Of a stretch of DNA of 37,218 bases, positions 117 to 238 are shown piece after piece. The notes below the pieces were generated by a model. It was given only the letters and a program-made list of their open reading frames with translations, was not told where the DNA came from and did no database searches. The position numbers were made by a program, and so were the translations under genes. The stretch is from a virus: IMG/VR virus record IMGVR_UViG_3300046163_000059, positions 1 to 37,218 of that record; one strand, given 5' to 3'. Numbering within the stretch: the first letter of the stretch is position 1; the number at the start of each line of letters is the position of its first letter.

Positions 117-182
117 ACCTCATGTATTTATTCTGCCCAGTTTTCCCGTTGCCTGAAGGTTCGGACAGTCACCTGTTGAGGT
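117..182 (-). ncRNA. possible folded RNA segment closed by a 6-bp stem
   Basis: ACCTCA at 117-122 pairs perfectly with TGAGGT at 177-182. Read on the - strand, CTGTCC can pair with GGGCAG inside this stem, with one G-U pair, and smaller stems are possible within. The segment has no credible reading frame and is much richer in G+C than the A/T tract at 480-800. It lies just downstream, in leftward transcription, of the tRNA-like minihelix, so both may belong to one structured RNA. I recognise no known RNA family. Confidence 0.3.
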
Positions 183-193
183 AAATGTATAGC

Positions 194-238
194 TCGGCTG
201 AGCGGGTTTCGAACCCACTTACGAATCTATTCCAGCCG
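194..238 (-). ncRNA. tRNA/tmRNA-like acceptor plus T-arm minihelix
   Basis: On the - strand, CGGCTGG (238-232) pairs with TCAGCCG (201-195) as a 7-bp acceptor-like stem with one G-U pair, followed by A at 194 in the discriminator position. Between them are a 13-nt linker (231-219) and a canonical T arm (218-202): stem GTGGG/CCCGC around loop TTCGAAA. There is no anticodon arm, no base-paired D arm and no encoded CCA. The linker contains GATTCG at nearly the same distance from the acceptor as in the GATTCGAC block of many tmRNAs, so a reduced tmRNA tRNA-like domain is one reading. A tRNA-mimicking terminal structure, a decayed tRNA or an attachment-site relic are others. The pairing is seen directly; the identity is inferred. 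Confidence 0.4.

Follow-up and report, generated by a model that had tools for sequence, protein, structure and literature searches.

The stretch of DNA analysed here, hereafter the window, is a virus record of 37 kb (37,218 nucleotides) from a marine Bacteroidota phage. By structural-protein matches, its closest kin are the Callevirus and Elemovirus phages of Cellulophaga and Flavobacterium. The first gene of its early operon is a 75-aa ORF on the minus strand (positions 249 to 476), preceded by a promoter-like motif, ACAAACAAAATA...GGATAATAT, at about positions 523 to 554. Relatives of this ORF were confirmed at 85 viral stretches. For 56 of 80 relatives the 150 nt upstream contain GATAATAT, against a background of 0.115 per 150 nt. 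In relatives, the site of this gene holds many tRNA-like elements. Among 50,697 records of isolated phages, no match was found to either the 75-aa protein or the 200-nt region. A 15-bp inverted repeat (positions 243 to 278) overlaps the end of the ORF and lies directly before the element described below.

We identified a genuine 45-nt tRNA-like structure on the minus strand (positions 238 to 194), which starts 10 nt past the stop of the 75-aa ORF and has the sequence CGGCTGG AATAGATTCGTAA GTGGG TTCGAAA CCCGC TCAGCCG A. The structure consists of an acceptor stem of six to seven base pairs and a T-arm, and the anticodon domain is absent. The whole minihelix, supported by sequence, fold, and covariation in four relatives, spans positions 193 to 239, with 238–233 paired to 200–195 and a possible additional pair, T239–A194. 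The T-arm (positions 201 to 219), supported by sequence and fold, has a stem of five base pairs, GTGGG/CCCGC, extended by A219–T201, and the loop TTCGAAA. A mini-hairpin of three base pairs, GAA-UAGA-UUC (positions 223 to 232), replaces the D and anticodon arms, and its middle pair is A-U, U-A or C-G among relatives.

The acceptor/T-arm likeness named in the original prediction is borne out, although several of its details need qualification. The acceptor, predicted to be seven base pairs, reaches that length only if T239–A194 is counted. The predicted discriminator A is correct if it is A194, but becomes G193, followed by C-U-A, if A194 is paired. The predicted linker does have a length of 13 nt, but it is not unstructured, since it forms the covarying mini-hairpin. 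Both stem and loop of the predicted T-arm are present; however, of 239 true tRNAs in these phage loci only 4 have the loop TTCGAAA, and the UU of this loop can pair with AA to leave a CGA triloop, as happens in the minimum-energy fold.

The region from 190 to 242 folds with −20.7 kcal/mol (z = −3.19), and 2 of 200 shuffled sequences were equally stable. In a pattern scan, this was the sole site in the window with an acceptor of six to seven base pairs, a five-base-pair T-stem, and a T-loop; the same scan of reversed sequence gave no matches in the first loci and a single match in 1.3 Mb of later loci. Of the features of a canonical tRNA, the acceptor and the T-arm with its T-loop are present, and the D-arm, anticodon arm and anticodon are missing, with the UAGA-loop hairpin in their place. 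ARAGORN called no tRNA at the element, and nothing was called there by Rfam at gathering score. An intrinsic terminator is disfavoured, as the stem has no U-run after it.

Close relatives of the element are rare. Three pattern searches found its subfamily in only four contigs beyond the window: L003/G001 (identical to the window's copy), L053, L087, and L108. Their acceptors are, respectively, CGGCTG/CAGCCG, CGACTG/CAGTCA, TGACTG/CAGTCA, and CGACAG/CTGTCA, where the first pair is C·A in the second and fourth. The corresponding linkers contain GAATAGATTC, GTATAGATAC, GAATAGATTC, and GCATAGATGC, each of which forms a three-base-pair hairpin with the loop UAGA, in the variants GAA-UAGA-UUC, GUA-UAGA-UAC, and GCA-UAGA-UGC. 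In the alignment, which has only four rows, 96.7% of cells are paired and four pairs are altered on both sides, whereas slid controls were 20–35% paired with no pair altered on both sides. Compensatory changes had been proposed as support for both stems. Within the subfamily they occur in the acceptor, which has pairs altered on both sides; the T-stem is invariant and therefore contributes no covariation, but the wider family described below shows strong covariation of its T-stems. In L002, a near-identical phage with flanks very similar to those in the window, the element is cleanly missing and is therefore dispensable.

A wider family of anticodon-less minihelices

At the same site in related phages we found a larger, unannotated family that consists of an acceptor, a D-loop-like UGG, and a T-arm, with no anticodon arm. 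A strictly defined acceptor plus T-arm element lies within 350 nt downstream of the 75-aa ORF in 27 of 68 distinct relatives, or in 34 with relaxed rules. The main class (class 1) has the layout acceptor-AUGGUUAAU-T arm-A-CUAA. A pairing-blind pattern in which only AUGGUUAA and GUUCGAUUC are fixed was found in at least 120 viral stretches, versus 26 in a genome collection of 257 Gb. Of 90 distinct viral sites selected with this pattern, the T-stem is complete at 83, and at 61 the acceptor is complete as well, in a fixed register; when 5' and 3' halves were exchanged as a control, the figures were 15.4% and 1.4%. In a further alignment (A2), 10 of 11 pairs are altered on both sides, although the 100% pairing there merely reflects a scan that required it, and the 90 pairing-blind sites are the unbiased version.

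The element in the window shares the features of this family, having an acceptor, a short linker and a T-arm, no anticodon arm, and an intergenic position past the 75-aa gene. A covariance model built for class 1 (R1) detects further family members; it reported no match to the element, even at an E-value of 10 with filters off. The element therefore resembles class 1 in architecture and shares its genomic site, but it is not a proven homologue. R1 was also used to consider the minihelices as a bacterial feature, which was rejected: the model matches 1 of 296 Bacteroidota genomes, namely the MAG that the pattern had already found and that was used as a centre. One contig (L117 / G016:19398-20090, minus strand) carries five tandem minihelix matches at a spacing of about 150–200 bp. 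The first 50 kb of each of the phages phi38:1 and elemoF contain ordinary tRNAs. In phi38:1 they also include a tmRNA, and the only short-linker match there proved to be the 3' portion of a tRNA-Arg call.

The neighbours of the minihelices are on the same strand upstream in 92 of 102 cases and downstream in 81 of 102, and the next ATG is at a median of 51 nt. In 87 of 113 minihelices the base after the discriminator is a C. The same holds for 218 of the 239 true tRNA genes in these loci, although CCA is encoded by only 15 of the tRNA genes. UGG, which resembles G18-G19 of the D-loop, is present in 98 of 114 linkers, although many loci were picked by a pattern containing UGG.

Tag-less tmRNA-like RNAs in the same phages

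The original prediction compared GATTCG in the linker to a tmRNA 5' end. This resemblance does not survive comparison with relatives, which have GATACG and GATGCG at this position. The sequence is one arm of the covarying mini-hairpin and changes together with the opposite side. The best match of the tmRNA model RF00023 to the element scores 6.6 bits, with a gathering score of 47, and covers only the T-arm. A G·U at 3-70 is the alanine identity pair; of the combination G3·U70 and A73, the element lacks the former, its pair 3-70 being G-C. A tmRNA link is thus not supported for the element.

A tag-less tmRNA-like decoy had also been suggested, and tag-less tmRNAs do exist in these phages, although the element itself resembles a tmRNA only in its T-arm. 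In G001, a 60.7-kb contig in which the 75-aa gene heads a long, same-strand series of small genes, an 82-nt match at positions 45596-45677 (L257) spans tmRNA model positions 1-374 and scores 53.1 bits. It lies in the same operon and on the same strand as the identical copy of the element, 3.5 kb downstream. Matches of 73–109 nt that run through the model end to end were found in 10 of 10 contigs tested (G001, L018:6058-6138, and eight more), and three of these score above the gathering threshold. A related series has the form GGGCGTG - AAATGGTTA - variable body of 36–117 nt - AAC - GCAGG TTCGATT CCTGC - CACGTCC - A. When located by the 3' end alone it comprises 60 stretches, and a matching 5' acceptor is present at 53 of 54 sites. 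In most Ala-type elements the G·U at 3-70 is retained, and the pair 4-69 is variable.

Tag-less tmRNA-like RNAs with G3·U70 and hypervariable bodies are widespread in the same phages, and are possibly a more interesting find than the element itself. Standard annotation overlooks the minihelices, none of which ARAGORN called, and among the neighbouring tag-less tmRNAs Rfam detected only three.

Possible functions of the element

RNase P, RNase Z, and CCA-adding enzymes recognise the tRNA elbow, and some viral and long noncoding RNAs draw in RNase P through tRNA mimicry (PMC4810234). By analogy, the elbow of the element may be read by these enzymes, and the covarying mini-tRNAs of the related phages probably recruit host tRNA-processing or tRNA-binding machinery. 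For the element we favour, with a probability of roughly 0.4, the interpretation that it is a transcribed mimic of the tRNA acceptor/T-arm that is read by host tRNA-maturation enzymes and acts as an mRNA-punctuation cassette. Within the early-operon transcript, RNase P would cut 5' of the acceptor and RNase Z 3' of the discriminator, after which CCA could be added to the released RNA. These cuts would split the mRNA of the 75-aa gene from the remaining operon, or give it a defined, protected end; the punctuation would be tRNA-like and would involve no decoding tRNA.

The structure, its covariation and placement, the wider family, and the polymorphism in presence and absence are directly observed, whereas it is inferred that the element is transcribed and processed and that its RNA has any function once released. 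Several of the observed features point to punctuation. The minihelices are on the coding strand between the stop of one gene and the next gene, and what they retain are the parts by which tRNA-maturation enzymes know their substrates, with the anticodon domain either missing or replaced at will. The C past the discriminator is as in true tRNA genes of the same loci, and most linkers carry a D-loop-like GG, partly by choice of loci. Counting against punctuation, the element has either a G after A194 or an acceptor one pair longer than in relatives, its loop can extend the stem, R1 misses it, and a near-identical phage does without it.

A broader reading, which we put forward tentatively, is that in Bacteroidota phages the anticodon-less minihelices and TLD-only tmRNA derivatives serve as intergenic cassettes that can stand in for one another. 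By capturing host tRNA enzymes, they would either have polycistronic phage mRNA cut or disturb tmRNA and tRNA pathways. The set would be large and rapidly diversifying, and the element would represent one subfamily with a mini-hairpin body.

Considerably less probable than punctuation is a role in trans, in which a released tRNA or TLD mimic would act as a decoy, occupying SmpB, EF-Tu, an aminoacyl-tRNA synthetase, or a tRNA-attacking enzyme of host defence. A molecule similar to the tmRNA of phage DS6A is reported to inhibit tmRNA strongly, perhaps by titration of SmpB (Hudson et al. 2014, PMC4131195), and tag-less tmRNAs occur in all ten contigs tested of the same phages, in G001 alongside the element. 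However, the element is tmRNA-like in its T-arm only, lacks the G·U at 3-70, and does not conserve GATTCG. The decoy idea thus fits the neighbouring tag-less tmRNA better, given the model matches there and the precedent of phage DS6A.

It is somewhat less likely again that the element is a functionless relic, the remains of a tRNA or TLD gene after a deletion, as would be common in phages whose tRNA-like sequences turn over quickly. The rarity of the subfamily (four contigs besides the window), its presence or absence among near-identical phages, and the variety of tRNA-like bodies that occupy this site agree with this, but compensatory changes in acceptor and mini-hairpin, the invariant T-arm, and the strong covariation of the wider family speak against it. 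A plain 3' hairpin with only incidental likeness to tRNA, serving to protect the mRNA of the 75-aa gene or to mark its end, seems more doubtful still. Such a hairpin would account for the stable fold and the closable CGA triloop, and other hairpins do occupy this intergenic site in other relatives; it would not need the true T-loop, five-base-pair T-stem, GG linker, and post-discriminator C that the site's other elements retain. Finally, an attP derived from a host tRNA gene, as a copy of its 3' end, is highly improbable even though tRNA-like attP sites (e.g., in halovirus HF2, PMC8707807) and tRNA gene fragments left by integration (PMC9897764) are known, since an attP needs neither the two acceptor strands present here nor their covariation, and GTGGGTTCGAAACCCGCTCAG, with up to two mismatches, occurs in none of 295 genomes from the class to which a Flavobacteriaceae MAG belongs.

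Structures resembling tRNA are already a known kind of RNA. The tmRNA of mycobacteriophage DS6A is reported to be little more than a TLD (Hudson et al. 2014), and is, like the element, a tag-less phage RNA cut down to the acceptor/T-arm half (PMC4131195). Unlike it, the element lacks tmRNA sequence signatures and G3·U70, and has a three-base-pair hairpin as its body. The C4 RNA precursor of P1 and P7 and the M3 RNA of phi80 are phage substrates of RNase P, as shown biochemically. They are likewise phage RNAs with a tRNA-like part, and RNase P is predicted to read the element also; however, the family to which the element belongs is a repeated intergenic cassette. In eukaryotes, mascRNA and menRNA (about 60 nt), which lie at the 3' ends of MALAT1 and MEN-beta, are cleaved by RNase P and RNase Z. 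These too are small tRNA-like RNAs with a reduced lower half that form the end of an mRNA or lncRNA, as is proposed for the element, which belongs to a bacterial virus and has no sequence relation to them. The tRNA-like structures of plant RNA viruses also mimic the acceptor/T-arm half, but they are located at the 3' ends of RNA genomes and often have a pseudoknotted acceptor, whereas the phage family is intergenic in dsDNA genomes and has an ordinary acceptor stem.

No phage RNA of this exact shape, of which the original prediction likewise knew no example, was found in the open-licence literature, and neither the papers searched nor Rfam 15 yielded a description of anticodon-less tRNA-like minihelices from phage operons. 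Minihelices are known chiefly as laboratory fragments of tRNA and as the supposed ancestral half of the molecule. Natural minihelices that are widespread in phages would offer a living model for the ancestral-half idea, and would suggest a phage route to punctuating operons or disarming ribosome rescue.

Neighbouring structured elements

Just downstream of the element we found a second structured RNA, motif B (positions 131 to 175, minus strand; GGTGACT..CCGAACC..AACTGG). It is present in 21 distinct places besides the window, mostly adjoining a minihelix, and its outer stem is 97% paired with two pairs altered on both sides. Carriers include L002, L008, L018, L027, L028, L034, L042, L052, L120, and L124, among others. 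A hairpin bounded by GTGACAATAGCC...GGCTAATGTCAC, which is absent from Rfam, has two copies in the window (positions 48 to 92 and 948 to 992) and a variable inner stem. It also occurs at this intergenic site in many relatives, namely L009, L013, L020-L023, L044, L048, L054, L058-L063, L072, and L075.

A second tRNA-like element ends in ..CTAGTT-A and has a body with CGACGG or TGACGAG hairpins; its 5' partner strand is ambiguous. Examples are G001:45418-45505, L018:5882-5967, L053:5298-5386, and L060:4783-4866. In G001 and L018 it lies a few hundred bases ahead of the tag-less tmRNA.
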